NCBI GenBank assembly: GCA_948567375.1
Contig: OX419762.1
Coordinates: 32,059,465 to 32,123,464, forward strand
Reading direction: 5' to 3'
From: Lunularia cruciata
Taxonomy: Eukaryota; Streptophyta; Marchantiopsida; Lunulariales; Lunulariaceae
DNA: 64,000 nucleotides
Shown here: one piece after another, positions 7,631 to 43,256 of the stretch
How positions within the stretch are numbered: position 1 is the first letter of the stretch
Layout of the letters: the number at the start of each line of letters is the position of its first letter
Made by a program: the position numbers and the translations under genes
The notes under the pieces: generated by a model
What the model saw: only the letters and a program-made list of their open reading frames with translations
Databases searched by the model: none
Told to the model about the DNA's origin: nothing

Positions 7631-7750
7631 ATGTTGATTTTGAGATCGGAAGGGGCAGATATGAAGAGATAGATTATCGATTAGGATCTATAGGTAGGAA
7701 AGGATGTTAGGAAGCGGTGTTTAGGTAGGTAAGTCTGCCGTTTGCTTCAG

Positions 7751-7757
7751 TATTTAA
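7751..7757 (+). promoter_or_regulatory. TATA-like box of the family-1 LTR
   Basis: TATTTAA is followed by GTGGAGCATTTGCA. Equivalent boxes lie at the same place in other LTR copies: 24812-24818, 38661-38667, and minus strand 29511-29517 (59244-59250 is diverged). It lies downstream of the U3 ORF, so the ORF is upstream of the probable transcription start. Confidence 0.6.
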
Positions 7758-8438
7758 GTGGAGCATTTGCAGTACAATGTTATTTAGTATTCAACTTTCT
7801 GAAGATAGATAAAGCAAAGTGTTGTTCTCAATACTTGTTGCTTAAGCTTAATTCCGATTGTCAATTTTGTGTTTGTGTTTGTGAGTGTGTGGAGAATTCT
7901 AGAGAGCAAGTCAGTGTGTTTGTGGATGTTGGAATCTGTAGCCTTGATCTTCATTCTGTGTGTTTGATCCTGAGTGAAGTGCATCGGAGCAATGCCTTGA
8001 CAAATATGAGAGGAATTGTAGTGTTGTTAGTATTTTGCATTCATGAGTGTAGTGCAAAGTTGATGTGAAGCAATTTAGATTGAGGAAGTTGTGCCTTCAG
8101 TGGAGGGGTGGAACACAATTTTGAGGTGAAATCGGTCTTTGCAGTGAAGTGCCGTCTTTGGGAGAATCTGAATCATCACAATCAAGAGTTGTTTGGACAG
8201 AATTTGCTATGTTGTGATTATGTGAGTGTGTATTTGTGACAAGTTGTCAAGATTGTGAGCTTGTTACTCTCTTCTAGGTGTAGTTTCTACTTGAGAGATT
8301 AAAGAAGACATCAAGAAGAACTGCAATTGTGACTTTTGACTTTGTATTTGACCAATTCTGGATAGTATCTATGCGGGAACAAACTTTACTGACCCGATTA
8401 CCACAAAAGTGATATTTTCCGGGTTGTCACATGATTTT

Positions 8439-8456
8439 TGGCGCCGTTGTTGGGGA
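8439..8456 (+). other. Primer-binding site, tRNA-Asp type
   Basis: TGGCGCCGTTGTTGGGGA matches 17 of 18 bases of the complement of the plant tRNA-Asp(GUC) 3' end, the known primer of Athila-type elements. It starts seven bases after the 5' LTR end, which independently fixes that boundary. Confidence 0.85.
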
Positions 8457-9149
8457 TACAAGTCTTGGAAGTGGAAGAATACAAAGCCAAATTCGAAACT
8501 GGGTGTCCATGCAATATGAATGTCTGCATCAAGAGAACAACGGTAAGAGAGAGCTCCAAGACGAGCAGTGCAGCATGAAGAAGATGAACGTTTGAAAGCG
8601 CCATAAACTTCAAACGAAATCAAACTAGAAGAGTTGGACTTTCAACTTCTCCACAAAGTGCAAGCAGCCCTGCGTGAACTTGACAAAAGAGACACGAAGG
8701 AAGTTGGCAAGGCTACTTTTCATCCCCATCTTCCAAGAACAAGAAAGACTCGAGTGGGCAGACATACGCGGTATGACCCAATACACCGACTTCCCCTAAA
8801 GCTGTAAAGGAAGTCAATTTCATTAAGAAGTGTGTTCACAAAAAGACAGTGTGAACACTTACGGAAGAAGAGTGTCAGCATCTGGTACGAAAGATTCCCC
8901 GATTAACCCAAAGAAGGTTTAAAGATCAGACTGAAGTTGTGGACCCTCTTACTTCTGATCGGGTTGAAGTCGACACAATCAGAGAAGAAGAAATTGTCAA
9001 AGAAGACCCCAATTTGAACTTGAAAAATTAGAACCCGTGGGCAGACAACACGGTGTCCATACCAAGTAGCTCTACGGTCCCCGTAAGTTCAAACTTACCA
9101 CACCCAAATCCACCGCACCTAACGATGTCTTCAGTACCCGTGATCCGAC
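8457..9149 (+). other. Element 1 leader and decayed gag N-terminus
   Basis: This stretch runs from the primer site to the first clear gag sequence. Short open pieces in changing frames (for example PRKFKLTTPKSTAPNDVF near 9079) suggest the gag N-terminus began here, but stops and frameshifts prevent placing a start codon. Confidence 0.5.
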
Positions 9150-10368
9150 ATGCTTGCTTATCAAAAGTATAAAGGTACAGAGCAAGACAAAGATCCTGAC
9201 GAATTCATTGAGGAATTCAAAGTCATTTCCTTTGCCAACAAGGAACATGACTCTGCGGATCGACTATGGATTTTTCCAAGTTTGCTCCAAAAGAAGGCTC
9301 GGAGCTGGTATACTCATGTAACACAGAAGGGATTTACACTAGTAGACTAGGCAGACTTACGGAATGGCTTCATGGAATGATTTTGGGAAGTGGATTATGA
9401 TACGAGTGTCTTCGCGGCACTTAATGATTTGGACCAAGGAAAGAAGGAAAAATTGAGAGATTACTCTGAGCGGTTCATGGCCTTATTGAACCGAGTCCCG
9501 AAGCAATCAGGGGTGGTGGGTTATTCCGATGCCCAAGCCATTACCTGGTTTCTTGGCGGGCTTTCACCGGAGATTTGAATCTTTGCCAGGGAGAGAAATG
9601 TAACCTCTCTGGACAAAGTCCTCAAACATGTTGCCCGATATGAGGCGGTTCATTCTAACTCGTCCAGTACTTGAAGAAATCATGAGAAGAAAGGCAAAAA
9701 GCCAAGATGAAGAGCTTCACAAAGTACTTCTCCTTCTTTGGAAGAATCCTCCACTTCTTCTAGTTCTTCTTCGGAATCCGACAAAGAACCCAAGCCAAGA
9801 AAAATATGAAGACGCGGAGGAAAGAAGCCCGTAACACCGCTAGTAAAGAATATATCCAAGGCGGATCAAAAGTTGGAAACTCTCATTAAAGAGTTTGCGG
9901 ATTTTAAAATCCAGATGATTGGGGCGAAGGACCAAAGAAAACCCCAATCATTTGGACAACCAAATGTATGGTGCATTGCGTGTGGTAAATCCGGCCACGC
10001 TAATACGGAGTGTTTAACTCGCACGGCATTTCTAGTGCAACAAATAGATTGGGTACCTGGGTGGGATCAAGGCAAAGAAGAAGATACAATATACCAAACC
10101 CAAGACACACAGCCTTCATCAAGCCCATCATATCAAGGTCCCCGGTTTGGACCAAGGGAGTATAATCCTACGGTTCCTCCACAAAGACCCCCAATGGGTG
10201 GTCAAAATAGACCGTCAAAATAGACCTCAAAATGTTGCACCGGGTGCTTGTTACAATTGTGGCTCAATAGGACATTGGTCTCCAAATTGTCCGGAGCCAA
10301 GATGACAAATTGGGTATGTACCCCTTTGTGGGAATTGTAAGGGATCGGGGCACACAAGAAACCAGTGC
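9150..10368 (+). pseudogene. gag: Element 1 gag (broken), three zinc knuckles
   Basis: The capsid-like part (9150-9580) contains the retrotransposon gag pattern DPDEFIEEFKVISF, LQKKARSWYTHV, LRDYSERFMALLNRVP and AITWFLGGLSPEI. A Ser/Glu-rich linker follows. Three CX2CX4HX4C zinc knuckles are intact at codon level: 9972-10013, 10249-10290 and 10327-10368. The first lies in one frame and the other two in the frame that continues into pol. Stops occur at about 9348, 9576 and 10222. Gag would form the particle and bind RNA. The knuckle-to-pol frame continuity suggests gag and pol were made as one polyprotein. Confidence 0.85.
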
Positions 10369-13300
10369 TTGCAACCACCCAATCCGAAGCTCCCTGTCAA
10401 GTATGTTCAAACTCCTGCTGAGCATGTTGCGCTCCAGGCAAAGGGGGACACTAACGTCAATTGTATTACACTTGAGGAGAAGAGGCCTCAAGAAGGGAGT
10501 CCGGCTTCAGAAGGAGATTGGCCGGACCTCAAAATTTTGAAGGTAGAAACTCACGCGGAGAGAAAGAATCGAGTTTCTGAAGAAACAAGTATGGCGGCAT
10601 CTTCCTCCCAGAAAATGAAGAGACTGCAACCAAAAGCTATCCTTTCTGCAAAGGAGGAAAAAGTCCTAGCAAAAGCCTTGCAGAAAGAAATTAAGGAAGC
10701 AGTACTATGCACGCAGGAGATGAGTGTGGAGGCAAATGCGAAGACGCAAACCCTCATATTTCCGGCGGATATCAGGTCTGAAGTAAAAGACCTGATTCAA
10801 GCCAAAGTTGGTCAACCCAAAGTTGGTCAACCCGATGATCATCGGGTCAACCACCTACGCACTCTGGTTACCATCCTCAAGCATCCCGAAGTTTGCTTTG
10901 AACAGGCAAACAATTCGGAACCAAAGCCAAAAATGAAGCAGGTGAAATTGAGGGAAGTTCCACAGTATGATATTGTGGCAAATATGGCGTCTACAAGCGC
11001 AAATGTCATGCTCAAACAATTATGGGAGGACAATAAGCTTTATAAAAAGTAGCTAAGTTCAGCCCTCAAGAAAGGAAGGGCGATGACGAAGAAGGACTTG
11101 CCCGCAATTTATCATATTGAATAGGAAGATTTGGGATCTCCCGAGGTGGATGCAGAGATAGCAGGTTGTATGATTACATCCATACCCATTGATTCGAGGT
11201 CGGGTGTAAATGTCATGACAAAAGACACTGCACATCGACTGGGGTACACAACCTTTGAACCAACACCGCGGATACTTAAGTTTGCGGATCAAACCAGGCA
11301 ACGGCCCTTGGGCATGCTGTCGAATATTACCACAATTATTGGAGGGGTGCCTTTCAAATTAAACTACATTGTGTTACAAACTGTAACCAAAACTGGCTAC
11401 CCTCTCTTGATCGAGAGACCCTGGTTGTACAGTGCCCAGGTTATGGTGGATTGGCACCAACAAAACTTATGATTTAAAGACATTTTGTCTAAAGAACAAA
11501 AGCTGGTGACCGTAAGTTGGACAAAGGTTCCTCATCTTGGGGAAACTACTTCGTCAGAAGACGAGGATGAATCCGAAGATTCATCGTCTTTGTCTTCTGA
11601 GGACTCCAAAGCCGACGTCCAAGTAAATTATTTGGAATGCTACGAGGTAGAAGTCGACAATGAAGACCCATACGACATCACCTCGGGTGAACAAGACTTG
11701 GAGGAAGGGGGTTTGATGGCAGTACGACTCGAGTTGAGCCGAGTAAGTCACGTAGAAGCTGTCATTAACCCCAATGACTGTCAAGATGTGGTCTTGACTG
11801 AAGAAAAGATTTGAAAAATTTCAAAGACAGTCACTGCTGAGGAGTTGGCAAGATACACTACCCTATTTATAGAGCTCCAGGATGTATTTGCCTGGTCTAT
11901 TGACCAAATGCCGGGAATTCCACAAGATTTTGGCGAGCACCGGATTGATCTGGTCGAAGGTGCAGTTCTGGTTCGGCAAAGACAATACCGCCTGAACCCG
12001 AAGTACTCTCTCCTGGTAAAAGATGAAATTGATAAGTACTTAGGGGCCGGAATAATTTTCCCTGTTCTAAGGAGTGAGTGGGTTTCACCCATTGTCATCA
12101 TTCCAAAGAAGAAGACAGGGAAAATTTGAGTATGCCAAGATTGTTGCAAATTGAATGCAATCACCAGAAAGGACCATCATCCTTTACCATTTACAGACAC
12201 AATTTTGGACCAAGTAGCTGGTCATCCATGCTATAGTTTTCTCGACGGATTTTCAGGGTACAATCAAGTATCCATTCGAGAAGAAGACAAGGACAAAACC
12301 ACATTTACCACTGATTGGAGCACTTTTGCTTACAATCAAATGCCCTTTGGGTTGTGTAATGCTCTTACTACTTTCCAACGGATGATGAACTCAATATTCA
12401 AAGATTTTATGCGTAAATTTGTGGAAGTCTTCATTGATTATTTTTGTGTGTTTGGGCAAAGAGATGTACATATAGATTATCTTCACCAAACTTTTGAAAG
12501 GTGTCATTTTGCCGGTTTGTCATTACACCCGGAGAAATGCTTCTTCGCAATGAAGGAGGGAATTCTTCAGGGGCATCGGGTGTCAAGCCAAGGAATTGAA
12601 GTGGATGTCAAGAAGGTTAAAGTAATTGCAGCTTTGGAATCCCCAAAGAACCTCCGGGAGCTGAGAGCCTTCTTAGGACATGTTGGATACTACAAACGCT
12701 TCGTGTCAAACTATGTAGTGCTTGCTGCACCACTTACAAAGCTTCTAAAGAAATCCAAAGATTATCTGTGGGAAGCAACTCAAGAAGAAGCTTTCTAGGT
12801 ATTGAAGAAGAAACTGGTTGAAGCACCTGTCATGAGGGCCCCAAATTGGGACGTCCCTTTTCATGTGTATGTAGATACTTCGTCCATGGCCATCGGAGTT
12901 GTCTTAAGTCAGAAGGACAAGAAGAAAAAGGACTACCTGGTGTATTATGCCAGCCAGCAACTTTCAGTTTCTGAAAAGAACTATTTGATGACTGAAAGAG
13001 AAGCCCTCGGGGTGGTGTATGCCTGCAAGAAATTTTGTCACTACCTGTTAGGATACAAATTCGTCTTCTATGTGGACCATTATGCATTGCAACACTTGGT
13101 GAAGAAGGTGGATTTGTCCGGGCAAATTGCACAATGGAGCTTGTTGTTACAAGAATTCACATACACTGTACAAGTAAGGAAGGGAGCTTTGCATTCAAAT
13201 GCGGATTTTTTATCCAGGTTAGAAACTCAAGACCAAGATTTGGAAATCGATGATCGGTTTCCTGATGAAGAGCTATATCATTTAATGATTGTGCGAAGTA

Positions 13301-14597
13301 CACGGTATGCGGCAGAATATCATTATTTGCATACATGCCATTGTCCGGAGGGGCTGGATCCGAAACAAAGAGCAGTCTTCCTTTGAAAATGGGACCGTAC
13401 CAATTGAAACACAACATTTTGTTTAAAATGGGCAAAGATGAAGTACTTTGGAGATGCTTGGAAGCATACGAAGTAGGAGGAGTCATCAAATCCTTGCACT
13501 TGAAAGCATCGAGGGGACACTATGCCCTGAAAACTATGGTGAAGAAAATTCTTTCGGCAGGGTATTGGTGGCCTACGATGTATAAAGATATGCATGCACA
13601 TATTTGGAGTTGTGATGCCTGTCAAAGAACAGGGAAACCAACGGCGACTTCTCAGTGGCCTTTGAAACCAATTTTGCCTCTGGCTCCATTTGAGAAATGG
13701 GGTATTGATTTTGGGGGACCTATTCAACCAGTAACCTGTGTCACAAGAAAGAGGTATATCTTAGCATGTACCGATTATGCCACCAAGATGGTGGAAGCAA
13801 AGGCAACACGAAGAGATGATGCAAAGACAGTAGCAGAAACATCATTTTCTCGTTATGGGTGTCCTCTGGAATTGGTCAGTGGTTGGGGAACTCATTTTTT
13901 GAACTCAACGGTGGAAGCATTAACCAAATACTTCCAAATTAAGCATCGGAAGACCACACCTTACAACCCAAAAGCAAATGGACTCACGGAGAAAGCCAAT
14001 GGATTGATGGGTAAAATTTTGAATAAGGTGACAGTCAATTATGCCTATGACTGGGATACGAAGTTACTTGCAGCATTGTAGGCATATCGAACAATGGAAA
14101 AAATTACTACCAAGCAAACTCCTTATTTCCTGACATACGGATTGCATCCCATATTACCAGTTGAGTTTGAAGTACCGACATATAGAATACTTTGTGAAGA
14201 ACATTTGTCAAAGGAAGAAAGTCAAGATCTTCGGATCCATCATCTGATGTGGTTGGAAGAGAAAAGGGACAATGCAATGCAAACTACAAAGGAAATTCAA
14301 GAACAACAGAAAGTTTGGCACAATAAAAGAATCAAACCTATGACTGTTCAAGAAGGAGATCTGGTAGTATTATATGATAATCGCCACCTATTTTTTCTAG
14401 GAAAATTACATCTGAGGTGGATGGGACCGTATCATGTGATGCACATTTATGATAATGGTTCTATTCAACTTGCAGACCTGGATGGCAATCCTTTTGCAAC
14501 TCGCATCAATGGTTGGAGGGTTAGAAAATATTGGACCCTGAACCCAACTTTGTATAAAAACCCTGTTGTTGGTGTTCGCAAGGACACTCACATTTGA
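10369..14597 (+). pseudogene. pol: Element 1 pol: protease, RT, RNase H, integrase (broken)
   Basis: One frame runs from the zinc knuckles to about 13383, broken only by point stops (about 11050, 11122, 11470, 11812, 12127, 12796); integrase continues in a shifted frame to 14597, with a TAG near 14079. The protease site reads IDSRSGVNVM (11185-11220), where DSG would be expected. RT spans about 11990-12560 with MPFGLCNA; the catalytic pair is Asp-Tyr (FIDYF, 12436-12441) instead of Asp-Asp. RNase H (12850-13230) keeps YVDTSSMAIGV, TEREALGVVYA and YVDHYALQHL. The integrase zinc domain has HLKASRGH and CDAC; its core keeps GIDFGGP and the Glu of NGLTEKANG, but the second Asp is Gly (VSGWGTHF). 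The stop codon lies within the polypurine tract. Confidence 0.9.
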
Positions 14598-14606
14598 GGG
14601 AGGGGG
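14596..14606 (+). other. Polypurine tract of Element 1
   Basis: GAGGGAGGGGG precedes TA and the 3' LTR start at 14609. The pol stop codon TGA (14595-14597) overlaps it, so there is no untranslated spacer between pol and U3. Confidence 0.85.
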
Positions 14607-14608
14607 TA

Positions 14609-15127
14609 TGTGGTACCCACATTTTTTGTTTTTCTATGGTTAGTTGTGTTAAAGAGACAAAGTAAGCACGGAAAAGTTGAATTGCGGACAAAGAGTGGAC
14701 AGAAGTAACTTCAAAGGAAAGCCGAAGAAGCTGACATCGGATCCGATGATGGAGGTACTCGGAAGAGGAGTATGCCGGGAACAGTCCGAAGATCACCGTC
14801 TTTGGGTTGGAAAATGCAAGAAAGACAAAGACCGTTTAACAACCTCTGTACGTGGCAAGAAAGTACATTTCAAGAAATAGCGGGGCCAGAAGAATCATGT
14901 CTTAACAGTGACCGGGAGTGCACGCAGAAGAGAGAAATTCACCGACAAAATTGACTGAAGAATGACTGCAATTCAGGGCAATGTAAATTGCAACTACGCA
15001 GGGGGAATTCAAACACTCAGAGTAAATTTCCGATTCCTTTGAGTAGTCGTGCTGCAGTAATGCGTGTCCGGAAGCCCATCGAGAGTGAGATTTTCCAAAA
15101 CCCTGAGGGAGTTAGAGTGTCTTGTCC
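14609..15127 (+). repeat. 3' LTR of Element 1, left part
   Basis: It matches the 5' LTR from TGTGGTACCCACA onward and contains the U3 ORF start codon at 15060-15062. It is cut at 15127 by the insertion of Element 2; the LTR resumes at 22311 after the duplicated GTCC. Confidence 0.92.
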
Positions 15128-15275
15128 TGTAACACCCATTTGTGCATGTGTGTGGTATTGTGATATTTAGCTTGGTAATACAAGTACTTAAGAGATATTA
15201 TTTATATAGAGATAAAGGATGGTTCTATATTAGTCATGGTTAGCTAAAGTTAGTCATAGCTAAGATAGAGGGGAG
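15128..15275 (+). repeat. Truncated 5' LTR of Element 2
   Basis: Only the first 148 bp of the LTR remain. At about 15275 the sequence jumps to leader sequence (GAGAACATTAGGAGAGG) that in Element 4 lies at 42056, beyond the LTR and primer site. The deletion removed about 540 bp of LTR, the primer site and about 100 bp of leader, with GGA microhomology at the junction. The promoter is lost, so this copy cannot start its own transcript. Confidence 0.88.
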
Positions 15276-16036
15276 AGAACATTAGGAGAGGAGAGGGCTG
15301 AACTTATGTTAGAGAACCAAGATCCATTTGTATACCCTGTAGTTCATTATGATGTCTTTGAGGTGATTTTGTACATTTTGTACACATGAGAGGAATTGGA
15401 GAGATTGTGGGAGGTGGATTGCAGATTTTGGGGATTAAGGTGATTTTGGGCAAAATCTCAAGTTTGAGATCTGGACTTGAAATTTCTACACATGTTAGTT
15501 TGGGTTATTTTTCAGTTAGCACACTTGAAATTATTATGAGAGCTTCTATGCGCACTGGGCTAGAATTTTTGAAAGTTGATAGGGTAAAGTGCTCACGCAA
15601 CTGCATGCTCTCTAGAAAATTGTACAGAGTCTGCCATTTCTTCAATTTTTAGTGAATTGTCCTAAACATTTCCAAGAAAATTCAATGCATTGTATCCTAC
15701 ATGCTGACACAAAAATTAGAGAGAGATCAGATTTGCGCAAGGAGAAATGAGTTTTTGAAGTGAGGGGGGTGGTTTTCATACCAAATCTGAAATATGGGTG
15801 CTGAATAGAAAGGTGTCTAGGCCAAATGGCTCAATGAAAAGATCTGAAATTCTGCAGGAAGGGACACCCTGGAGTTGTTATCAAGTGTGAAAAATTTCAG
15901 AGGATTGTGACATATTGGTTGGGAGATTTGAGTGACATTGTGAGGAAGGGTCAATTCTGCAGAGTGGAGATCTCATGCATGAGAAGTTTGAGATCAACAA
16001 AAAGCATGTTTGAGTGTCTAGATTCATCTTGGGAAC
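15276..16036 (+). other. Family-2 leader (5' UTR) of Element 2
   Basis: This is a non-coding leader before the zinc-knuckle ORF, with short unsupported ORFs only. It is homologous to 42056-42783 in Element 4 and, on the minus strand, to about 49800-50515. Confidence 0.7.
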
Positions 16037-16510
16037 ATGGAGGGTCATCAAGAGTGGAAATTGAGATTATGCAAGGTTCCCCAAGGGTTTGAGGTGATTT
16101 TAGGGGTTGATTTGAGGAAAAGAGAGTTTACAATAGAATTTGAAGAGAGTATTGAGAGGATCCAAAAACCTACACCACTTGGAGTAAAGAGTGAGTCTAA
16201 GTGCTTTCTATGTGGAGAGAAGGGACATAAGGCAAGTTCATGTCCATTGACCTTTGAGAGCAAGAGATTGAGGGAAAGGAGAGGCTTACTTGACTTGGGT
16301 TTGCATGTTGGACCTTCTTCACCAAGATTGGGAGGGAGAAGATCTAAGACCAAGGAGTTGTGTGAGGTTTGTGGAGTTGAAGGACTTCCAAAAGGACATG
16401 AGTGTAGTGGAGTAAAAGCACTTTTGGAAGTTTTGGTGAAGGATCTTGGAGAGAGTCTTAGTACAGCTACAGAAATATTTCCACCTTCATCAGCTAGTTC
16501 TCAAGATTAG
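16037..16510 (+). CDS. Family-2 pre-gag zinc-knuckle protein (157 aa, intact)
   Basis: This complete ORF lies between the leader and gag. Residues 56-69 form a CX2CX4HX4C knuckle (CFLCGEKGHKASSC, 16202-16243). Residues 109-123 form a second Cys/His cluster, CX2CX8HXC (CEVCGVEGLPKGHEC). Between them is a basic, strongly conserved block (RLRERRGLLDLGLHVGPSS). Homologues occur in the same place in Element 4 (start codon lost, 42784-43254) and on the minus strand (49433-49771). Gag carries its own knuckle further downstream, so this is an additional nucleic-acid-binding candidate and not the gag C-terminus. Its function is unknown. Confidence 0.75.
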   Translation: MEGHQEWKLRLCKVPQGFEVILGVDLRKREFTIEFEESIERIQKPTPLGVKSESKCFLCGEKGHKASSCPLTFESKRLRERRGLLDLGLHVGPSSPRLGGRRSKTKELCEVCGVEGLPKGHECSGVKALLEVLVKDLGESLSTATEIFPPSSASSQD

Positions 16511-16512
16511 TG

Positions 16513-16677
16513 ATGGAGATAATCTTTCAACTTATGGATAAACTATCCATGAGAGTTAGATTAATATGCACTCTTGGATTTGATGTTGCTATAGAAATCT
16601 TGGAGCAACCTAAACCTTTTGTGTTCCCTAGAGTGGATTATTCTCAGATGGTGTTAGTCATGTATATACTCTATTAG
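16513..16677 (+). CDS. Conserved 54-aa ORF between the zinc-knuckle ORF and gag (family 2)
   Basis: An ATG two bases after the preceding stop opens 54 codons ending in TAG. It starts MEIIFQLMDKLSMRVRLICT and is hydrophobic, with no transmembrane pattern I trust. Element 4 has an ORF of exactly the same length and frame at 43257-43421, with few substitutions and no stops. It may be a small accessory protein, a remnant of a larger ORF, or chance preservation in a young family. Confidence 0.5.
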   Translation: MEIIFQLMDKLSMRVRLICTLGFDVAIEILEQPKPFVFPRVDYSQMVLVMYILY

Positions 16678-16744
16678 TAATAGAGTGAGAGAAAAGAAAA
16701 GAGAAAAAGAAATTGAGAGAAAAGAAAGATAGTGAGAGGTTAAG

Positions 16745-18074
16745 ATGGGGAAACTTCCGGTTTTCTTTGGCAAGGATGGAGAAGATGTGGAGGCCTTTGT
16801 GAGAGACTTCAAGAGAGCTTGCATAGGAAACAATGAGAGGAGGAAGAATGAGTGGGCCTCATTATTACCAAATTTCTTTGAGGATGCAGCACTTACATGG
16901 TATGAGTCAGAATACCAAAAGAGAGAGAGGAGAGAGGGGGAAGAGGAGTCTTGGGAGACTTTGACTTCAGCACTCATTGAGAACTTTCTTCCTGATGAGA
17001 GTTATGAGAGATTGATGAGTGAGGTTACATTTCTCAAGCAAGGAGATGGAGAGAAAGTGAGAGTCTATGTGGAAAGAGTGGAAAAGTTGGAGTCCAGATT
17101 TCACATAGTGTTGAGGAAGGGTAGGGATGATGTGGAGACTACAATGATTGGCATAGGGGCCATGCTCACCAAGAATTTTGTGGGAGGATTGAGACCACAA
17201 ATTAGAAGCAAGGTGAGATATGAGAAACCTTCTTCCAAGGTTGAAGCTATCAAGATCGCAATTCGTATGGAGGAGAGTTTGGAAGGGGATGAGAGTGATT
17301 TGGGTGGTGAAGGAGGTTGTGCATCCTCCTCAAGGCTACAAGTATGGTGGAAATTCTGATACTTTGGTGACAAGGGTTGCACCACAAGTAGTAGTTGCTC
17401 CAATTCTTGCACCTCCACCAAAAGATCCACTCCAAACCATCACAGAACAACTTCTGGATCTCAAGATCAATGTGGTGCAACTATGGGAGAAGAGAGAGGT
17501 GGATCAGAATGTAGGGAGAGGGTCTAGGAGTTATGGAAACTATCCATATAGAGGAGGCCAACCAGCCAACAATTTCAATGATAGGAATTGTTTTGGTTGT
17601 GGAGGAAGAGGCCATATCCAAAGGAATTGCCCAAATTCCACTTACCATGGAAGAAGGGGTTATGAGGGAGCCAATAGAGGGAAAGAGGGAGGTGGTGAAA
17701 CCCAAGTGGCTCCTAATCCCAACAAAGGTAAGGAGATAGCATCCATAGATGTGGTTGAGAGCAAGTATGAGAAGGGAGAGTGCTCAAACTCCAAGGGTCT
17801 TAATTTGGAGCTTTTGGCACAAGAGAAGAAGAGAGCTCGTTTTGCAGAGGATGTTTACTCTTCTCAAGGATTTATTTCAAGCAAGGATACTCCTATGTCT
17901 ACTAGGAGCACTCGCACCTCAACACCATCAACAACAAAGACTTCAAGGAAGAAGTTGGGAACGGAGGACTTCTTGATCTCAAAGCAACAATGGAACTACA
18001 ATGTGTTGGAGGATGTTGGTAGTCACAAGGCTAACATCACAGTGGGCCAATTAATTGCTTTGAACCCTTATTGA
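16745..18074 (+). pseudogene. gag: Element 2 gag (one frameshift)
   Basis: The ATG at 16745 opens MGKLPVFFGKDGEDVEAFVR, followed by a capsid-like region (FEDAALTWYESEYQ, WETLTSALIENFLPDE, GEKVRVYVERVEKLESRF, NFVGGLRPQIRSKV). Compared with Element 4, one extra G in the run at 17302-17304 shifts the frame; the remainder continues in a second frame to 18074. A CX2CX4HX4C knuckle (CFGCGGRGHIQRNC) lies at 17589-17630. Gag would build the particle. The gag stop overlaps the start of the pol frame at 18071. Confidence 0.88.
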
Positions 18075-21000
18075 GAAAGGAGCTTAGAGGTGGTTTGAAT
18101 TCTACAAGGAGCAAGAAGAAGAAGAAGGCAAAAGTTCCAGTATCAATGGGGGTGGTGGATGCCAAGCCAGCACCATGGGAGGCTTGTGAATATGCCTCCA
18201 AGATTGATGTGAGAGTGAATGGTCACAACATCAAGGATGCATTGGTTGATGGAGGATCAGCAGTGAATGCCATGTCAGAAAGGTTGATGAAGAAGTTGGG
18301 TATGATACCCTCAAGACCTTCAACATTTGTGGTGAGCATGGCAAACAAGCAACAAGTTCGACCAGTAGGGGTGATGGATAAGGTGGTAGTTTCAGTTATG
18401 GGAGTTCAAAATCTCATGACTTTCCAAGTCTTGAAGGATTCAAGCTATGACTTACTTCTTGGGAGGCCATGGTTGAGAGCAGCACGCACAACTGATCAAT
18501 GGCACAAAGGGTACTTGAGGATTGGGCCATCAAACCATAGAGTCACTGTTCCTGTGACTAACACCACCAACACTTCACATTCAGATACCCCATCTTCTGA
18601 TTATTGGGAATCAGATTCTGAAGAAGGAGCTTCAGGTGTGGACACAAGCATGGAAGAGGAGACTTCCACGGAGGAGGATGAATCTGAATCTAATTCAAAT
18701 GTGTATCCTTTGTGTGCTATGGATTTTGCACCTAAGCCAGAGGTTTTGAAGGACCCAGACAAATCACCATTGACACTTGAGGAGGTAGAGAGAAGGTTAG
18801 CTACCCTCAAGTATGGTCTAAATGTTACCAAGGAGGAGAAGGTGAGATTTGAGGAGATTTTCCGCAAGTTCATCCATGTGTTTGCTTTTAGTTACAAGGA
18901 TTTGAAGGAATTCACCTTGGAGGAGCACAAGATAGAGGTGGAGTCACATGCAAGACCAGTTCACCAAAAGCAACGTCGCATTAGCCCACCAATATCTTTG
19001 GTTGTGAAGGAGGGGAGATTGATAAGCTCAAGGAGGCTGGATTTATCTTTGAGGTGGAGAATTCAGAATGGGTGTCTCCAATTGTCATTGTGAAGAAAAA
19101 GAATGGCAAGCTTTGGGTATGTGTGGATTACAAGAAGCTCAATGCTGTTACCAAGAAGGACTACTACCCATTGCCATTCATTGATGAGATCTTGGAGGAG
19201 GTTGCAGGTCATGAGAGGTACAATTTTGGAGATGGTTATAATGGATACAACCAAATCAAGATTGCACCAGAGCATCAACAACTCACCACGTTCACCACAC
19301 CTTGGGGAACTTACACTTTCAAGGTCATGCCTTTTGGGCTTTGCAATGCTCTAGCCACATTCCAACGGTTCATGAACAAGGTATTTGAACCTTTCATTGG
19401 GAAATTTGCGAGAGACTTCATTGATGATTTTTGTGTCTATGGGAGCAAGGAGGAGCACTTTGAACACCTAATCAAAGTCTTGCAACGCTTGGATGAGGCA
19501 AATGCATCACTCAACCCAGAGAAGTGCATTTTTGGATGTGAAGAAGGTCTACTTTTGGGGCACATCATCTCCAAGGATGGAATAGCAGTTGATCCTGAGA
19601 AGGTGAGGAAAATCTCAGACCTTCCATTCCCTTCAAGCTTGACAAAGTTATGCCAATTCTTGGGGATGGTTGGATACTATAGGAGGTTCATCTTCTCATT
19701 TTCCAACAAGGCTTATGCATTGACCATCTACATGAAGAAGGGTGTAGATTACATGGTGATTTTGGAGGACAAGGAGGCTCTCAAAGCTTTTGAGGAGCTC
19801 AAGCAATCCCTTGTTGTAGCTCCAATTCTTGCTAAACCTGATTGGAGTAAGCCTTTCATCCTCTACACTGATGCTTCTAATGTAGCTATAGGATGTACTC
19901 TTAGTCAATTAGACCAAGATGGGCATGATCATCCAATAGCTTATGCTAGTAGGCAGATGGTTTCAGCAAAGAAGAACTACTCTGTCACGGAGAGAGAAGG
20001 GTTGGCAGTGATCTTTGGTCTCAAGAAGTTTAGACACTACTTGATTGGAGAGAAAGCCACCATTGTCACTGATCACAAGGCTTTGAAGTACATCTTCAAC
20101 AAGCCTAATGTTGAAGGGAGACTTGCAAGGTGGATGATACTCTTGTCTGAGTATGACTACACCATTGAAGATAGGCCAGGAAAGAAACATGCAAATGCTG
20201 ATTTATTATCTAGAGCCTATGATCATGATGGAGATGAGCCAGTGGATGATTCCTTCCCGGATGAGGAGCTCATGACAATCTCAGTCACTCAAGAGGTTCC
20301 AATGGAGTACAAGGAGATTGTGGATTTTGTGACAAAAGGTAACTATCCAGAAGGGATGCATGCTAGGGAGAGGAAGGCCCTTGCAGCAAGATCTAGACCT
20401 TACACAATGGTGGAGGATATTCTTTTTCACCAAGGAGCAAATGGTCTACTTCGAAGAGCAGTGGGTAAGGAAGAGTCTATCCTACTCATAAAGGAGTTTC
20501 ATGAAGGTTTAGTATGTGGAGGACACTTTGTAGGAAAGGTGACTGCTTTCAAGATTCTAGATGCAGGTTACCATTGGAGAGGGATTTTTAAGGATTGTCT
20601 TGATTATTGCAAAACTTGTCATGTTTGTCAAGCTTTTGCTAGAAAGTCTACATCCACTCCACCACTTAGATCAATTCCATTGCTAGGACCTTTTGAGAAG
20701 TAGGGAATTGATTTTGTAGGTCCTCTCAATAGAACCCCAAGGAACAATCGGTACATTGTGGTAGTTACTCATTACCTCACTAAGTGGGTTGAGGCTAGAC
20801 CATTGAGGGAAAAGAATGAAGATGAAGTTGGGAGATTTCTTTATGAACACATTATCACTAGGTTTGGATGCCCTTTGGAGTTGGTTTCTGATAGAGGAGG
20901 AGAGTTTACAGGAAGCATTACTACAGCCATGCTACGACATTTCTCTATCACACATAGAGTAACTACATCCTAAAAGCCAAATTCCAATGGCTTGGCAGAG

Positions 21001-21573
21001 AGAACCAATCAGACCTTGTGCATGATGTTGGCCAAAGATGCAGAAATGGAGGGGGCTAAACATCATTGGGACAAGAGGATTCATGTAGTGTTATGGGAGT
21101 ATAGGACAACCATGAAGACTTCCACCGGATATTCTCCATTTCAATTGGTGTATGGTATTGAGTCTACCTTACCTATTCACTTTGATCTTCCTACCTTCCA
21201 AAGCATTCATATGAGATTGAAGAAAGCACAAGGAGGTGATGCAGAGAAGTCAAGGAAGGATCAACTCATGGAGTTGGAAGAGGCAAGAGCAGTTGCTATG
21301 GTTCGAGTGGAGCAAGCCCAAAGGAAAAAAAAGGAGAGCTATGACAAGAGGCAAGGCAAGAAGAAGGTGGAGCCTTTCAAGGAAGGTGATTGGGTAATGT
21401 TGTTTGATTCCATTCGATTCAAGAGAGTGCAAAAGAAGTTTTTGCCTAAGTACTTTGGACCTTTCATAGTGGAGAAGGTGTGGGGCAATTACACCTATGA
21501 TCTCAAGGAGTTGGGAGGAAGACACTTTGATAGGATTAACCATGATAAGTTGAAGATGTACCATAGAAGGTAG
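18071..21573 (+). pseudogene. pol: Element 2 pol: protease, RT, RNase H, integrase (four-piece reading frame)
   Basis: The frame opens at 18071 (no ATG there) and overlaps the gag stop. The protease motif is ALVDGGSAVNAM, with Asp at 18248-18250. A 2-base GG insertion near 19010, relative to Element 4, moves RT into another frame that is open for 549 codons (19054-20703). RT has NSEWVSPIVIVKKKNGK, MPFGLCNALATFQRFM and an intact FIDDF at 19417-19431. RNase H has LYTDASNVAIG, TEREGLAVIFG and VTDHKAL. The integrase zinc domain ends CKTCHVCQ. TAG at 20701-20703 (Trp in Element 4) and TAA at 20971-20973 (Tyr in Element 4) break the core; SDRGGEF and NGLAERTN are intact. The C-terminus ends DRINHDKLKMYHRR without a chromodomain. 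The best placement is the Athila/Tat side of Ty3/gypsy. Confidence 0.9.
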
Positions 21574-21621
21574 AGTGACCTTCACTTTGAGGACAAAGTG
21601 AAAACTTAGTCCGGGGGTAAA

Positions 21622-22310
21622 TGTAACACCCATTTGTGCATGTGTGTGGTATTGTGATATTTAGCTTGGTATTACAAGTACTTAAGAGATATTATTTATA
21701 TAGAGATAAAGGATGGTTCTATATTAGTCATGGTTAGCTAAAGTTAGTCATAGCTAAGATAGAGGGGACCTTACTTTAGAAGAAGTAGAAAAGATGAGCA
21801 ACACTATTTTGGATTTTAGTGTGTTGACTTGGTATTATTCCTAGGTGTTTGGTTTTGAGGAAAGAGTTGAGAACTCTTGGGCCCGCAAACCTTTTTGTTT
21901 TGGATTCTTCTTTAGTCCAAGGATAGCCCATGTGAAGGAATCCTTGACTTAGTGGTTGGGTCAAGATAAGATCACATGCTTAGGGGAATATGCCCATGTG
22001 AATGGATATTCCTTTCTGCTTTTTGACTTTACTTGACTTTTAGTCTAGTAACTTGAGTTACTACGGTAATTAGCAACTTTGGTACATAACTATTTCACCA
22101 CTATATAAACAAGGGGTGAGGAGGTACTCATCATCCTTTCATTTGCAACTATCTCTCTCATTGAGTTCTCTAGTGAGCAATGTCTTGAGTCTTGGAGTGT
22201 TAGCCTTGAGGAGTATGATGGAGTTTGGGTTCCTTGCCTTCTTAGTCCATGATGCGCTACCATAATAGCCATCAGAGGTTCATCCTGAGTGAGAGACAGG
22301 CCGGCTCACA
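21622..22310 (+). repeat. 3' LTR of Element 2 (complete, 689 bp)
   Basis: It is preceded by the polypurine-like GTCCGGGGGTAAA. It starts TGTAACACCC and ends GGCTCACA. A TATA box (TATATAAA) is at 22102-22109, about 200 bp from the end. The 3' LTR of Element 4 (47778-48476) is closely related along its full length. Confidence 0.92.
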
Positions 22311-24691
22311 GTCCAAGAGAGGGTCTTGTTTTCCAACAGCGTAGAACGAGAGAGCAAATCATGGTGAAGAAGGTGGCCAACGCGCTGGCGGTGAGAGGTT
22401 TCACAATCCGAAGAGTAGATGTAGTAGTTAGGATTGAAGTCTTAGTCAAACTTTGTATTACATTTTTAGCATGGAACTGGAATTTCAGTTTCCCGGGAGT
22501 AATGGCAAAAATCGCTGCCAGTAATTGTGAGGAGGGTCCCGAGGTGGAAGGGAAGAGAGGCAAGCCGGCTTGATGGACTGAGTTGGATTGGAAGTTAGTA
22601 TTGGGGAGACAAGCAGGAGAGCCGACAGGGATCACCTTCTATCAGAAGAATGATGCTGCAGAGGAGACGGCGGAGATCCGTAACTCATTTTTCACTCCGA
22701 GAACTACGAATGGTTACAAGGTAGAGTCCTATCAATACCCAATCCAAAGAAGTATCATGGAGGCAATGATGGCCATGTTCAAGCCAGAACAAACGACTTA
22801 TGTCACCATGCAGCAGACAGTCTTTTTCCATCAGATGTTTGCAGGAGTTCTGGTGAATTGGGCAAGGTGCTTTCATCACCAAACGAGGTAGATGGTGGTG
22901 AATTGGAGAACGTGCTCACCACCGCATTATTTTGCACCATTCGGGGCTCATTTCTACTTTGGGCTGAACTTGCTGTCCAAAGACGAGCATCATTGTATGG
23001 TGTCGCACATGCACCCCGATTTGAGACGGGAAGCAGACGATGAGGAGCGCCAGTATATGCTTCATCTATGAGCAAATGATGAGTACTTTGCAAGGACGGG
23101 ACAGTGGAAAATCAAAGGTGTTACCAGTCCGAAGAAGAAGAAGCAAAGCAAACCTGAAGAAGCCAAGACGTCTCCCATGCAAAGAAAGACTCAGCGGCTG
23201 ATGTTGAAGACCGCCAAAGTTGTAAGAGGAGCATCATCGAGATCGGAGTCTAAAGAAGAAACTGAGTCACAAGAAGAGGACTCGGAAGAAGAAGAGCTCA
23301 CCTTGAAAAGTGAGGAGTCTGGGAGCAAAAGTGAGGGAGAGCCAGAAGTCCAGCAATCGGTGGTAGTAAGTGAGGCTGGTGAGGCAATGGTGGAGAACAA
23401 GCTAAGACCTGAAGAGAAGGAGGAGTATCCCGAGGGGCCGAGTTCAAGAGGTCAAGACGAAGATAGTGCCGACACGATGAAGATACAAAGATCGTGACTT
23501 TGGATGAAGGAGCCAATGACACAGGAGAAGACTCCAAACGAAGATGGCAATGAAGAGGAAGAAAACTTTGATGGGATAACATATTTAACAAAGGTGGTCA
23601 CACCATTGCTCGAGCTATTGAAAGAACATTGGAGAGGAATTGCCCAAGATCAAAGGAAAGGGATGAATGAGCTACATGTGGTGAAGCATCTGTTGAGTGA
23701 AGTGAAGGGGTTGCAGGAGCAACAAGTCCGAAGACATGAAGAAATTGAAGAACTTCGGAGGGAGGAAGACTTGAGGAAGAAAATGTTGAGCTTGTTACAA
23801 GAAAGCTGCAAGGTTAAAGAAAAAGAACGGTAGAGGCAAGCCAGAGAATTGAAGGAGCAGGCAATGTGGCTGAGCAAGATGAAGGGGGAAGTGAGTGATG
23901 TGCCCATCGAGAATGTCTATTTGAATGCAATGAACATCGTGATGGAGTTTGACAGCTTGAAGAAAAGTGCCGCAACAAAAGATCAAGCATGGTAGAGAGA
24001 GTTAGCATCCAGGCAAGAAGAAGTAGAGCGATTGCAAGAACTTGTAAAGAGCGCGGAATAGTAGAATATGCAATATGCAGAGGAGAAGAAGATGCTTGCT
24101 ACAGAATACGAAGACGAGTTGAAGATGTATCGTGAGGAGTTGAAGGTAGAACACTCTCGAGGATATGAGTCGGAATCAGTGGGAGAAGTGGTAGGGAAAT
24201 TAAGAGCAATCTTGAGCACGAAGGCTGAAGGGAGATTGGAGGAAGCCCGCCTACATGAGTTGAAGTTGCTTGTGTAGGAAACTCAGAAGCAAAAAGCCAA
24301 GGACGTGGACATGAACACATTGCTGATTCCGTTGAGAGAGCGTGTAGATAGGAAAATGTTAGAGGTAGAGAATAATATTAGTCTTAGGTTGGATTTAGTC
24401 AATTTGGAGTTAGAGAAAATTTGGACTAGTGTGATAGTGGAGAAGAAATCCGATGTCGCAGAAGTAGGAGTTCAAGTGTCATCGGACTTGAGGTTTGATA
24501 TGTTAGAGAAGAGTGGGTCAGGAGATAAGAGTGTAGATGGATTACCCATGAGCTCAATTGTAGATTGTAGTGTAGAAGTTGTAGAATTAGTGAAGAAATT
24601 AGTAGAATCAGTCATACCCAAAGAAGGTGAAATAGTAGGAAGATCATTGGGTTTGGAAGCCGATGATGAGCTCGACATCGGATCGGGATAA
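22311..24691 (+). pseudogene. Family-1 U3 ORF, 3' LTR copy of Element 1 (single frame, point stops)
   Basis: The ORF begins at 15060-15127, is split by Element 2, and resumes here after the GTCC duplication in the same frame; together they make 815 codons. The N-terminal block has RIEVLVKLCITFLAWNWN and FPGVMAKI, then TFYQKNDAAEETAEIRNSFF, NGYKVESY, FKPEQTTYV, FFHQMFAG, NWARCFHHQTR and MHPDLRRE. A basic linker, an acidic stretch (23230-23420) and a coiled coil (23570-24230) follow, then the conserved end block (DMNTLLIPLRERVDRKMLEV, 24311-24370). It ends DDELDIGSG. About nine nonsense codons interrupt it, mostly TAG or TGA where other copies have Gln, Trp or Arg; I saw no frameshift. The only obvious indel is an in-frame 6-base loss near 23947. 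I do not recognise the protein family. Confidence 0.75.
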
Positions 24692-25491
24692 ATGTTGATT
24701 TTGAGACCGGAAGGGGCAGATATGAAGAGATAGATTATCGATTAGGATCTGTAGGTAGGAAAGAATGTTAGGAAGCGGTGTCTAGGTAGGTAAGTCTGCC
24801 ATTTGCTTCAATATTTAAGTGGAGCATTTGCAATACAATGTTATTCAATTTCAACTTTCTGAAGATAGATAAAGCGAAGTGTTGTTCTCAATACTCGTCG
24901 CTTAAGCTTAATTCCAATTGTCAATTTTGTGTTTGTGTTTGTGAGTGTGTGGAGAATTCTGAAGAGCAAGTCAGTGTGGTTGTGGATGTTGGAATTTGCA
25001 GCCTTGATCTTCATTCTGTGTGTTTGATCCTGAGTGAAGTGCATCGGAGCAATGCCTTGACGTATCTGAGAGGAATTGTAGTGTTGTTAGTATTTTGCAT
25101 TCATGAGTGTAGTGCAAAGTTGATGTGAAGCAATTTTGATCGAGGAAGCTGTGCCTTTAGTGGAGGGGTGGAACACAATTCTGAGGTGAAATTGGTCTTT
25201 GCAGTGAAGTGCCGTCTTTGGGAGAATCTAAATCATCACAATCAAGAGTTGTTTGGACAGAATTTGCTATGTTGTGATTATGTAAGTGTGTATATGTGAC
25301 AAGTTGTCAAGATTGTGAGCTTGTTACTCTCTTCTGGGTGTAGTTTCTACCTGAGAGATTAAAGAAGACATCAAGAAGAACTACAATTGTGACTTTTGAC
25401 TTTGTATTTGACAAATTCTGGATAGTATCTCTACGGGAACAAACTTTACTGACCCGATTACCGCAAAAGTGATATTTGCCGGGTTGTCACA
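22311..25491 (+). repeat. 3' LTR of Element 1, right part
   Basis: This is the continuation of the LTR after Element 2. It contains the remainder of the U3 ORF, a TATTTAA box at 24812-24818, R/U5, and the conserved terminal block ending GGGTTGTCACA at 25491. The GTCAC target duplication follows at 25492-25496. Confidence 0.92.
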
Positions 25492-27876: not shown

Positions 27877-28839
27877 ACATTTTTTGGTTTTGATGAGTTT
27901 TTGAAGAAGAAGTGTATTGATAAGCCAAATTGAGGCCTAATGGTGAAGAAAGAGAAGAGGAATTGTGTGATTGGACTAAACCCAAAGAAGTCAACTTTGT
28001 GTCAGAGAAAGAAAGACTTAAAATTGGACTTATGGGGGAAGACCCAAATTAAGTTTACTTCACATTGGGACAATCAACCTGATCCAAAGAACCCATAACA
28101 ACTCTCCCTTGGGTCCCGCAAATCAAGAACATACAATTCAAAGAAAATGGCTACTTTAGGAAGAGTTTAACCTTAAGAGATGCAAAATATGTGAGTTGCA
28201 AGGGAAGATCAACCAAAGAATGACCAAGAAGCACAAAAGGATAAAATTTTGATTTCAATGAGCAGATTCTGCAATGCATAATTGATACCCTATGCCTCTT
28301 AGGAATTATCCCAAAGACGTCATATCTACAAGCCTAACAGTTGGAGCAATTTGCAAGAAACCAGAAGTGGGAAGGCACACGATGCCAATTAAGAGTGTTA
28401 GGCAGGTTCCTTCACTCGCAATGAGGAATCTTGCAATTTGAAGGCTAGATGTTGTAGCATAGATCAAAGTCTTGAGTAGACTTTGGATCACTTTTTTGGC
28501 TTGGAATTGGAATGTAGTTTTCTAGGGTTTATGGTGGAAACTACTACAAGTGATTGTGAGGATGGCCCTAAAGCCAAAGGGAAGAGAGGAAATCCTTCTT
28601 GCTGGACCAAGTAAGATTAGAAGCTGGTTTGAGGGAGAGAGGCTGGGGATTCATCTGGGGTCACCTTCTATCAAAAGTGTGATGCCTCAAAAGAAACTAC
28701 AAAAGCAAGGAGTTGATTCAACTTTGCATGTACAAAGAATGGGTATAAGGTGGAGAGCTATAGAGACCTGATAAGAAGAAGTATTGTAGGAGCTCTCATA
28801 GTAATATTTAAACCAAGACATACCACCTATGTCACAAAG
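27877..28839 (+). repeat. Family-1 LTR fragment (diverged subgroup), plus strand
   Basis: It begins within the LTR start (ACATTTTTTGGTTTTGATGAG) and aligns with 35577-36530 in order. The N-terminal part of the U3 ORF is recognisable at 28400-28839 (LAWNWN-type region, NGYKVESY-type region). It is cut at 28839 by the minus-strand LTR of Element 3. A likely continuation of the same old copy is seen at 35121-35576 and 39336-40904. Confidence 0.75.
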
Positions 28840-31800
28840 TGTGACAACCCGGCAAATATCACTTTTGCGGTAATTGGGTAAGTAAAGTTTGTTCCCACAG
28901 AGATACGATTCAGAAATGTCCAAATACAAAGTCAAAAGTCACAATGTAGTTCTTCTTGGTTGCATCTTTAATCTCTTAGGTAGAAACCACACCCAGAAGA
29001 GAATAACAAGCACTGATTCTCAGTCTTGTCACGAAGTAACACTCCTTAATCACAACACCTTCAATTCTTTCCAAACAATCTTGATTGTGATGATTCAGGC
29101 TCTCCCAAAAATAGTACTTCATTGTAAAACAACTTTGCCTCAGAATTGTGGTCTACCCCTCCACTGAAGGCACAACTTCCTCGATCAAAATTGCTTCATA
29201 TCAACTTCGCATTGCACTCACAAATGCAGAATACTACCAACACTACAATTCCTCTTAGATCTATCAAGGCATTGCTTCGATTGCACCTCACTCAGGATCA
29301 AACACACAGAATGAAGATCAAGGCTGTGGAATCCAACATCCAACAAGCACATGGACTTGCACTTCAAAATTCTCCCAACACTAACAATTACAAGCACAAA
29401 GTTGATACTCAGAATTAAGCTCAAGCGACGAGCACTACTTCACAACACTTCGCTTTATCTATTCTCAGAAATAATAAGCAGTGAACAACATAAGACTGCA
29501 AAGGCTAATCTTAAATAGTGAAGCAATTGACAATTATCTTCCTAATGTACCTCTTCCTAACAACTCTACAAACCTGCAGATCCAAAATGACAATGCACCT
29601 CTTCATATCTGCCTATTCACATCTCAAATCTATTACTAATCTGATCTGATATCTACTTCTTCCTTGGCTTTCAAACCCGAACCGGAAGTAAATTTGCTCA
29701 CTACTACTCTGTCCTTGGGTTTCATAACTCCTACATCTTCTACCAAATCTAATAGTTCTCTTTCTTGATCTGAAATTCCACTAGTGGGTAATCTATCTAA
29801 CTCCTTATCTCCCGACCCACTCTTCTTTGATGTCTCCAATGGTAACTCTGAAGACATTTGTACTCCTACTTCATCTACTTTGGGTTTTTCTCTAACATCT
29901 TTCCGAAGTTTATCTATCTCCAATTTTACTAAGTCTAATCGAATTGTGATATTGTCTTCTACCTCCAACATCTTCCTATCTACATGAGTTCTGAGACTAA
30001 TCAACAACACATTCAAATTGGTGTCCTTTGCATGTCTTCTCTTTGTCTCTTGCACCAACAACTTCAACTCGTGCAGCCTCGTCTCCTTGATACGCACGCT
30101 GGCCTCTATACTCAACATTGCATTCATCCTAATTACAATTTCCTTCAATGGCTCCAGTCTCATCTTCCTCTCTCGTTCCCAATCTGCAAGCCAATCCTCT
30201 CGGTACATTGCCAATTCTGCCTCAAACTTGGCTTTCACAACTTCCTTCTCCTTCTATTTCTGTACAGTCTTCTCCTCTTGATTACGAAGTAACTCTCACA
30301 ACCTCTCTTCTTCTCTATATATCACTGTCAACTCTTGTTGCCACATCTGCTTCTACTCTTATACACTCTTCATCACCCTATTGAGCTCTTGTTCTTTCTC
30401 GGCTATTCTTGCCATAGGATGGATAATCTATAATCTCAAATCAACAAATTGCTGCTTCAAGATCTCATTCTCAGCTACTTGTCTCTCCCTTGCTATGTCA
30501 CTCTGCTTCACAAGTTCCTCTCAATTCCTTTCTTCTCTCCTCAAGTTCTCTATCACTTGACTTTGCACTACTGCCTCTACTTGTAGTACCTCCCGTTCCT
30601 CCTCTCCTTGGATGATACTCCTCTTCAATTCCAAGTTCTCTTCTCCCAATCAAGCTAATGCTTGCAACACAATCTTCACCTCCGAGCACTTTGACTGCAT
30701 CTCTTTCTTCTTGTGTTCCAATTTCACCAACAAAGACACACAACTTTGTGCAGGTATTCCACTCTGTCACTTGCAACTACTTCAACTTGCGGAGTGATCT
30801 CCTTCTTTACCTCTTCTTCTCTTGATACTCGCCTTCTTCGCTGCAATAGTTGTATCGAAATGGATGCTTCACTCCCCGAACTGGCATTCTCCTCTTCCCT
30901 TACCTTGCTTGGACCCGCTTCACACTTCACCTTTTGTGTAGACCAAACTCCTCTTTGAATGGTAACCTTCCTCTCCTCCTGCTTTGGCACTTCGTCTTCT
31001 AACTTCACATTACCTTCCTCCTTGAGCTCCATCCTGACTTCTTCTTCCATTGTGGGAACCGATGTCATCTTCATGCCTTTGTCACTATCTCTACTCGTGT
31101 CTCCACTCTGTAGTGTGAGCTCGGGTTCTTCCTTGCGTTCCAAGTCTTCGGACTTGCACTTGGCTTTGGCTTCCGAGTCTTCTTCCGACGATGCGATTAC
31201 TACCATACCTTTCCTCGGGTTTACCTTTCTGGTCTTCCAAGGTCTTATTCTCTTGACATCTTTGTCTTCTCCTTGTTGACTCCTCTTCTTTGACTTTAGA
31301 GTACTCACATCCACCTACACACTCTTTCCTGTTTGGGCATAGTACTCATCACTACTTTTGATCTGAAGAATGTACTATTGCTCTTCCGTGTCAACCTCCT
31401 TTCTTAAGTCAGGATGAAAATGCGACACCATTTTGTTGTGCTCTGCCGCATTGAGCAGATTCAGCCCGAGGTAGAAATTTGTTGCAAATGGCACAATGTA
31501 ATACAGAGGCAATTTATCCCGCAAGTTCCACACCATCTGTCTTGTTTGCCCATGGAAGCACCTCGCTCAATTAATTGGCTCTCCTGCAAACATCTTATGG
31601 AAGAACACCGCTTGGTGCTTCATCACATAAGTTGTTCTCTCCGGCTTCAAGATTGCCATGAGAGTACTCACGATCCCTCTCTTGACCGGATCCTTGTAAC
31701 TCTCTATTTTGTACCCATTCTTTGTACTCTCTGAAGAGAATGCATCCCTCACTTCTTGGGTTTCTTTGGCTACCTCTCCCTTCCCCAAGAACGTGGCACC

Positions 31801-32624: not shown

Positions 32625-32635
32625 TACCCCCTCCC

Positions 32636-41953: not shown

Positions 41954-41957
41954 TTTT

Positions 41958-41975
41958 TGGTTCCGTTGCCGCGAC
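41958..41975 (+). other. Primer-binding site of Element 4 (tRNA-Asp-like)
   Basis: TGGTTCCGTTGCCGCGAC lies four bases after the LTR and matches 13 of 18 bases of the Asp-tRNA complement seen intact in Element 1. It may be a decayed Asp site or fit another tRNA. Confidence 0.6.
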
Positions 41976-43254: not shown

Positions 43255-43256
43255 TG

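Follow-up and report, generated by a model that had tools for sequence, protein, structure and literature searches.

The long terminal repeats (LTRs) of a Ty3/gypsy retrotransposon family from Lunularia cruciata, here termed family 1, hold a sense open reading frame (ORF) of about 776-811 codons that lies in the U3 region, 5′ of a TATTTAA box. Copies of this family are found in a stretch of 64,000 nucleotides (contig OX419762.1, positions 32,059,465 to 32,123,464 of assembly GCA_948567375.1), hereafter the window, in whose coordinates all positions are given. Comparison of four copies of the ORF (A, B, C and D) shows that, as long as the lineage was active, purifying selection acted on its protein to a degree similar to that on pol; in the dead copy for which this was measured, the protein drifted neutrally. 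We therefore read the ORF as a selected third gene of the retrotransposon, located in U3. Its product is most likely a nuclear accessory protein that forms oligomers, and to this reading as a whole we assign a probability of roughly 0.6.

Location and structure of the U3 gene

The original prediction, made from the letters of the window, described a long sense ORF with a conserved block order in the U3 of full-size family-1 LTRs, and this description holds: the LTRs measure 3.65-3.8 kb, start with TGTGGT and end with TCACA (self-alignment and boundary reading). The ORF of A (22361-24691, plus strand) spans 776 codons in a single frame with nine in-frame stops and no frameshift, those of B (29636-32070, minus strand) and D (59364-61797, minus strand) each span about 811 codons with stops and frameshifts, and that of C (36116-38541, plus strand) spans about 808 codons and is broken. 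The start codon, in the context ATGG, occupies the same position in A, B, C and D, and a further fragment (G) also has an ATG at the conserved ORF start (48860 downwards). In B, C and D, some 540-570 bases of LTR precede the start of the ORF. From its stop to the TATTTAA box (24812-24818 in A, plus strand, placed by alignment) there are about 120 bases. This box had been called conserved; its position 3′ of the ORF stands, its sequence not throughout, as D reads TACTTAA.

The claim that pol ends inside the polypurine tract is likewise correct. In both A and B, the TGA stop of pol (14595-14597 in A) shares its GA with the tract GAGGGAGGGGG (14596-14606 in A, plus strand), which ends two bases 5′ of the 3′ LTR. 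Because the polypurine tract lies directly 3′ of pol and 5′ of the gene, the entire gene falls within the LTR, upstream of TATTTAA. Judged from this layout, the box would act as the promoter, which would place the ORF in U3 rather than in the leader of the transcript; a complete sense gene thus lies between the polypurine tract and the putative promoter. The gene is present in the LTRs at both ends of the element and is retained in the solo LTR D. The segment between the ORF stop and TATTTAA is conserved in parts among five aligned LTRs. Right after the ORF stop there is a purine-rich, GAGATATGAAGAGGCAGATATGAAGAG-like stretch (24703-24734), largely kept in the equivalents of the 5′ LTR of A (A5) and of B, C and D; it may be what is left of a polypurine tract, or else a promoter element.

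A gene on the opposite strand was considered and rejected: over the ORF, antisense frames contain 19-34 stops in A3 (the 3′ LTR of A) and in B, C and D, compared with 10, counting the final one, in the sense frame of A3. For the shorter A5 the counts are 5 in the best antisense frame and 4 in the sense frame. No single sense frame is low in stops in B, C and D (27-56), so that the count is undecisive for these three, since they are frameshifted. A 206-residue ORF at 60063-60683 is the antisense of the coiled-coil region of D.

Evidence for purifying selection

Pairwise codon models were run with the frame of A as reference, after removal of codons that held a gap or a stop or lay in poorly matching stretches, as a result of which the acidic middle of the protein is represented mainly by the pair B-D. 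In frame, the ratio of non-synonymous to synonymous substitution rates (dN/dS, or omega) is 0.070 for A-B (287 codons), 0.073 for A-D (308 codons), 0.210 for A-C (368 codons), 0.187 for B-D (682 codons, with twice the log-likelihood difference at 159), 0.167 for B-C (300 codons) and 0.172 for C-D (353 codons), and the likelihood ratio against an omega of 1 is at least 73 for each of the six pairs. Control comparisons of the six pairs with the frame shifted by one or two bases return omega values of 1.05-3.10, and pol, used as a yardstick between A and B, gives 0.151-0.352 in four stretches. For the two LTRs of A itself (A5-A3), omega is 0.938 in frame and 0.683 and 0.843 in the shifted frames; a value near 1 is what neutral decay predicts here, because the two LTRs of an element are identical at insertion. 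The original prediction had named dN/dS as a test, with values near 1 between young copies speaking against it, and it comes through this comparison: copies differ with omega between 0.07 and 0.21, and a ratio near 1 (0.94) appears only within the dead element A.

Codon positions and indels give the same picture by other means. Changes at codon positions 1, 2 and 3 number 52, 29 and 76 on the branch separating B and D from A, 79, 63 and 125 between C and A, and 29, 25 and 54 for changes in B or D alone; the A5-A3 changes are evenly spread (28, 26 and 27), and in the LTR 3′ of the ORF, which serves as a control, the counts are flat in all four classes. Relative to A, ORF indels are divisible by three in 9 of 18 cases in B, 9 of 15 in C and 10 of 12 in D (28/45 in total), and downstream of the ORF in 0 of 10, 0 of 14 and 1 of 11 cases, respectively (1/35 in total). 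In A5, whose deletion disturbs the alignment, the fractions are 2/8 in the ORF and 0/1 downstream.

A and B have not diverged evenly along their length (12151-14590 against 29636-32070): the codon-model distance amounts to 0.4-0.5 in the reverse transcriptase (RT) and RNase H part and to 1.1-1.2 in integrase, and in the U3 ORF it reaches about 4, close to saturation. This hints at recombination between lineages or at differing rates.

The encoded protein

The predicted protein starts with an N-terminal domain of about 250 residues, after which come a basic linker, an acidic stretch and a coiled coil; a conserved block forms the C-terminus. Identity in the N-terminal domain is 52-55% between A and the other copies and 81% between B and D. 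Modelled with AlphaFold, the coil piece forms two long helices (residues 2-106 and 112-197) with a predicted local distance difference test score (pLDDT) of 76-92 in most blocks, and the piece comprising coil and C-terminus has a mean score of 59.7 and a predicted template modelling score of 0.26. The coiled coil and the residue composition suggest an accessory protein that is oligomeric and probably nuclear.

Searches for relatives were directed at several collections. The plant transposon-related families PF20167, PF10536 and PF04195, against which the original prediction proposed to check the ORF, gave no Pfam match, nor did PF03078: none of the four was matched by five ORF pieces at E ≤ 10, where three chance-level matches to other families appeared (E 0.15-0.2), none at E ≤ 0.5, where one other family appeared at E 0.27, and none at E ≤ 1 for any of the four alignment members. 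The N-terminal domain has no significant match in NCBIfam or among the sequences of the PDB. In a search of 5.8 billion proteins, the N-terminal part has no relative at E ≤ 0.001, and its four-row alignment has none at E ≤ 0.1 in the same collection, which includes Riccia and Marchantia proteins; this search requires shared five-residue words, and distant kin could escape it. The PF20167 region of P0117, compared by profile, gives no significant match (probability 0.1%, E 0.44); the alignment falls on the segment whose likeness is visible by eye, and we keep it as a lead only. A gag-derived N-terminus was set aside, the profile comparison with the element's own gag being likewise non-significant (E 0.53). 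IMG/VR contains no relatives by ORF, R/U5 pattern or pol, and its silence on the ORF says little because pol matched nothing there either; no relatives of the ORF were found in GTDB contigs, and Rfam and tRNA scans found nothing.

Classification and copies in the window

Element A (5686-25491) is bounded by TG...CA LTRs and a 5-bp target duplication (GTCAC), and the solo LTR D is flanked by such a duplication (TGGTA), in keeping with Ty3/gypsy LTRs. The internal region of A (8432-14608, plus strand, with stops and frameshifts) matches Retrotrans_gag, zf-CCHC, RVT_1, RT_RNaseH and Integrase_H2C2 in Pfam and shows the gag-RT-RNase H-integrase order of Ty3/gypsy elements; rve falls below the Pfam cut-off, and no Pfam model for a protease matched in this region. 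An additional RNase H, a feature of the Tat lineage (OTA), is absent by Pfam from three frames of 8432-14608. Its absence is shared with liverwort Ty3 elements, as is reported for liverwort Tat Z elements (PMC10508981), and the closest named pol relatives of family 1 come from Riccia and Marchantia, which points to a complex thalloid liverwort as the probable host. A pol tree joins family 1 to Riccia and Marchantia rows (support 100/99), among sequences that include no labelled Tat or Athila references.

The copies listed by the original prediction are found at the coordinates it gave; its list needs amending in that the LTR at 5686-8431 lacks the whole N-terminal domain and in that more fragments exist (E, F, G and H). 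This 5′ LTR of A (plus strand), delimited by self-alignment, ends, target duplication and deletion junction, lacks about 0.9 kb, which leaves the middle, coiled coil and C-terminus of the ORF (6149-7630, plus strand). The left end of the deletion (6149-6152) lies, relative to the LTR, a few bases from the point where a family-2 Ty3 element starts in the 3′ LTR (15074/15075), and a short AAAG/GAAG match is seen at the deletion junction (6149-6152; 23212-23215), by coincidence or from a common cause. Directly 3′ of the 5′ LTR stands the sequence TGGCGCCGTTG (8439-8455, plus strand, by sequence reading), a putative primer-binding site that may be of the tRNA-Asp type. The 3′ LTR of A is split into a left part (14609-15074, plus strand) and a right part (22312-25491, plus strand) by the nested family-2 element (15075-22311, plus strand; self-alignment and Pfam), whose RT is 81% identical to a Marchantia protein and whose 5′ end is rearranged. 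In the rearranged segment (15075-15278), about 53 bases without a good match within the window come first, next the final portion of the internal region joined to the beginning of an LTR, and then internal sequence, as if a tandem copy had suffered a deletion. At 41327-48477, self-alignment shows another family-2 Ty3 element, whose LTRs measure about 630 bases.

LTR B (28840-32624, minus strand) is the 3′ LTR of a truncated element, with a pol remainder at 32625-35121 (minus strand; self-alignment and translations) and no 5′ LTR partner in the window. LTR C (35577-39335, plus strand) shows no target duplication. The solo LTR D (58574-62368, minus strand) lies between Ty3-like pol fragments at 57885-58250 and 62379-63136 (minus strand; translations, by eye), and, given these remains of a further Ty3-like element on both sides, D seems to have inserted there. 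Boundaries of B, C and D come from self-alignment and boundary reading, as do those of the two parts of the 3′ LTR of A. Self-alignment further reveals fragment E (28424-28839, plus strand) with the N-terminal domain, fragment or fragments F (39336-41326, plus strand) with coiled-coil, C-terminal and N-terminal pieces, and fragment H (55017-55543, minus strand, ends approximate), an LTR tail without the ORF. Fragment G (48478-49409, minus strand) runs from the LTR start to the N-terminal domain and breaks at the end of a family-2 copy.

Weighing the explanations

We favour a third gene that is read in the genomic RNA. During replication of LTR elements, the U3 of the RNA 3′ end is copied into both new LTRs, so that each of them receives a gene located 3′ of the polypurine tract. 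Transcription would start in the 5′ LTR, and the gene would be read from the 3′ U3 copy. The ORF is preceded by a leader of about 540-570 bases with 7 upstream ATGs in B, 13 in C and 10 in D (eight are listed for B, the last being the ORF start itself), for which reason a spliced or otherwise subgenomic RNA is to be expected as the source of the protein. The protein would then most likely act on the element's own DNA, RNA or chromatin, in expression, anti-silencing, or nuclear or target access; the accessory regulator proposed in the original prediction is one possibility. It is most likely neither an envelope nor a gag: the gag substitute entertained by the original prediction is at odds with the element having its own gag with a CCHC motif.

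Several points weigh against this reading. No intact copy of the ORF is seen in the window, A, B, C and D all carrying broken ones, and a conserved splice acceptor 5′ of the ATG was not seen on inspection by eye. Synonymous sites are almost saturated between A and B/D, which makes the value of 0.07 imprecise; poorly aligned codons were left out, with 287 of 776 kept for A-B; and the six low omega values, drawn from four copies, depend on one another. The first counting method, which applied no transition correction, gave a pN/pS of 0.48 for A5-A3 (0.29 in the middle and 2.20 at the C-terminus), so raw ratios by themselves mislead. Since simpler counting is biased by transitions, our conclusions are drawn from the codon model and the position counts, with which the simpler method agrees in direction. 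The AlphaFold model of the N-terminal domain is unusable (pLDDT 43), the C-terminal block is unreliable (scores under 50 for most of the piece beyond residue 200), and what suggests a nuclear role is composition.

One rival is a combined module in which the protein, a transactivator or anti-silencing factor, binds sites in its own U3, both being kept in solo LTRs. The gene ends just short of TATTTAA and persists in the solo LTR D, the segment from stop to box is partly conserved, and the oligomeric, acidic, basic-linker architecture would suit such a factor; however, no DNA-binding domain is recognised in the protein and conservation near a promoter has other causes, which leaves this version unlikely. 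Decidedly improbable, in our view, is an env-like third ORF of the Athila/Tat type, concerned with entry, membranes or plasmodesmata, that now lies in U3 because the polypurine tract is upstream of it. Athila env-like ORFs are sense and directly behind pol (PMC7264820), and the conserved purine-rich stretch after the ORF stop could be an old polypurine tract. Yet hydropathy shows no clear membrane segment: the best 19-residue windows score 1.93 in A, 1.43 in B, 1.59 in C and 1.30 in D (first 270 residues of each, and the whole ORF for A), and all contain charged residues, so the envelope considered by the original prediction is unlikely. The long coiled coil with acidic and basic linkers and the lack of a significant Pfam match also count against it.

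The original prediction also raised a captured host gene, and its spread as a passenger of the LTR, whether the source was a host or a DNA-transposon gene, is highly improbable. Plant Ty3 elements seem to have picked up their extra ORFs in independent events and from several sources, and some of these ORFs carry transposon-related domains (PMC6317226); the comparison with P0117 also falls on the segment whose likeness is visible by eye. Against capture, selection between copies is comparable with that on pol, which speaks against passive spread; the PF20167 comparison is barely better than that with the element's own gag; and the protein searches found no host relative. A recently trapped gene is thereby left unsupported, with Riccia and Marchantia represented in the collection, and an ancient capture may have occurred. 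A chance open frame in a repetitive, purine-rich LTR has a probability close to nil: strong purine skew on the coding strand does favour open frames, but the codon-position, omega and indel patterns, with their shifted-frame and downstream controls, refute it, and the ATG is conserved.

Relation to known systems and implications

Mouse mammary tumour virus, an animal retrovirus with env, carries sag, a sense protein gene in its U3. The comparison with sag made in the original prediction is apt as to position and nothing beyond: both genes are sense and in U3, size and function differ, and no sequence relation is expected. In plants, the extra ORFs described are internal and lie either 5′ or 3′ of gag-pol (PMC7264820, PMC6317226). 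The extra 3′ or env-like ORFs of Athila, SIRE and Tat resemble the family-1 ORF in being sense, behind pol, large, divergent and mostly without known domains; they are internal, between pol and the 3′ LTR, whereas the whole family-1 ORF is in U3 (PMC6317226, PMC7264820). The antisense ORFs of Grande (gene23), RIRE2 and Retand (ORF4) encode accessory proteins with a reported SMC or transposase 28 domain, and the gene23 product is reported to be nuclear (PMC7264820). The coiled coil of the family-1 protein recalls them, but they are internal and of opposite orientation, and the family-1 ORF is sense with no significant domain match. Retrosat2/RIRE3 combines LTRs of about 3 kb with an extra ORF (ORF0), like family 1 (PMC3485330), but unlike the family-1 ORF, ORF0 lies upstream of gag-pol; Retrosat2 is listed under Tekay/Del chromoviruses (PMC6317226). 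In the accessible parts of the open-licence literature searched, no description of an ORF in the LTR or U3 of a plant element was found; the phrase matches opened concern a gene within a whole element, an LTR1 gene, polyprotein ORFs, non-LTR ORFs, methylation and variability, and many of the others deal, to judge by their titles, with mouse mammary tumour virus. An extra sense ORF in a plant Ty3 element is thus known, and its placement in U3 together with evidence of selection is, as far as our searches reach, new.

An extra ORF that passes codon-model, codon-position and indel tests, and in codon models behaves much as pol does, is direct evidence of function in the element. It is conceivable, though rather unlikely, that the lineage moved an essential accessory gene into U3, which would create a self-regulating LTR holding both the gene of a factor and the factor's target site. 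If so, each reverse transcription would duplicate the gene, and each solo LTR would keep it beside its own promoter. With a gene in U3, LTRs, solo LTRs included, can be coding DNA, and such genes would escape an annotation that sees LTRs as purely regulatory. Alongside animal retroviruses, family 1 is also a system in which one can ask what would bring a gene into U3.

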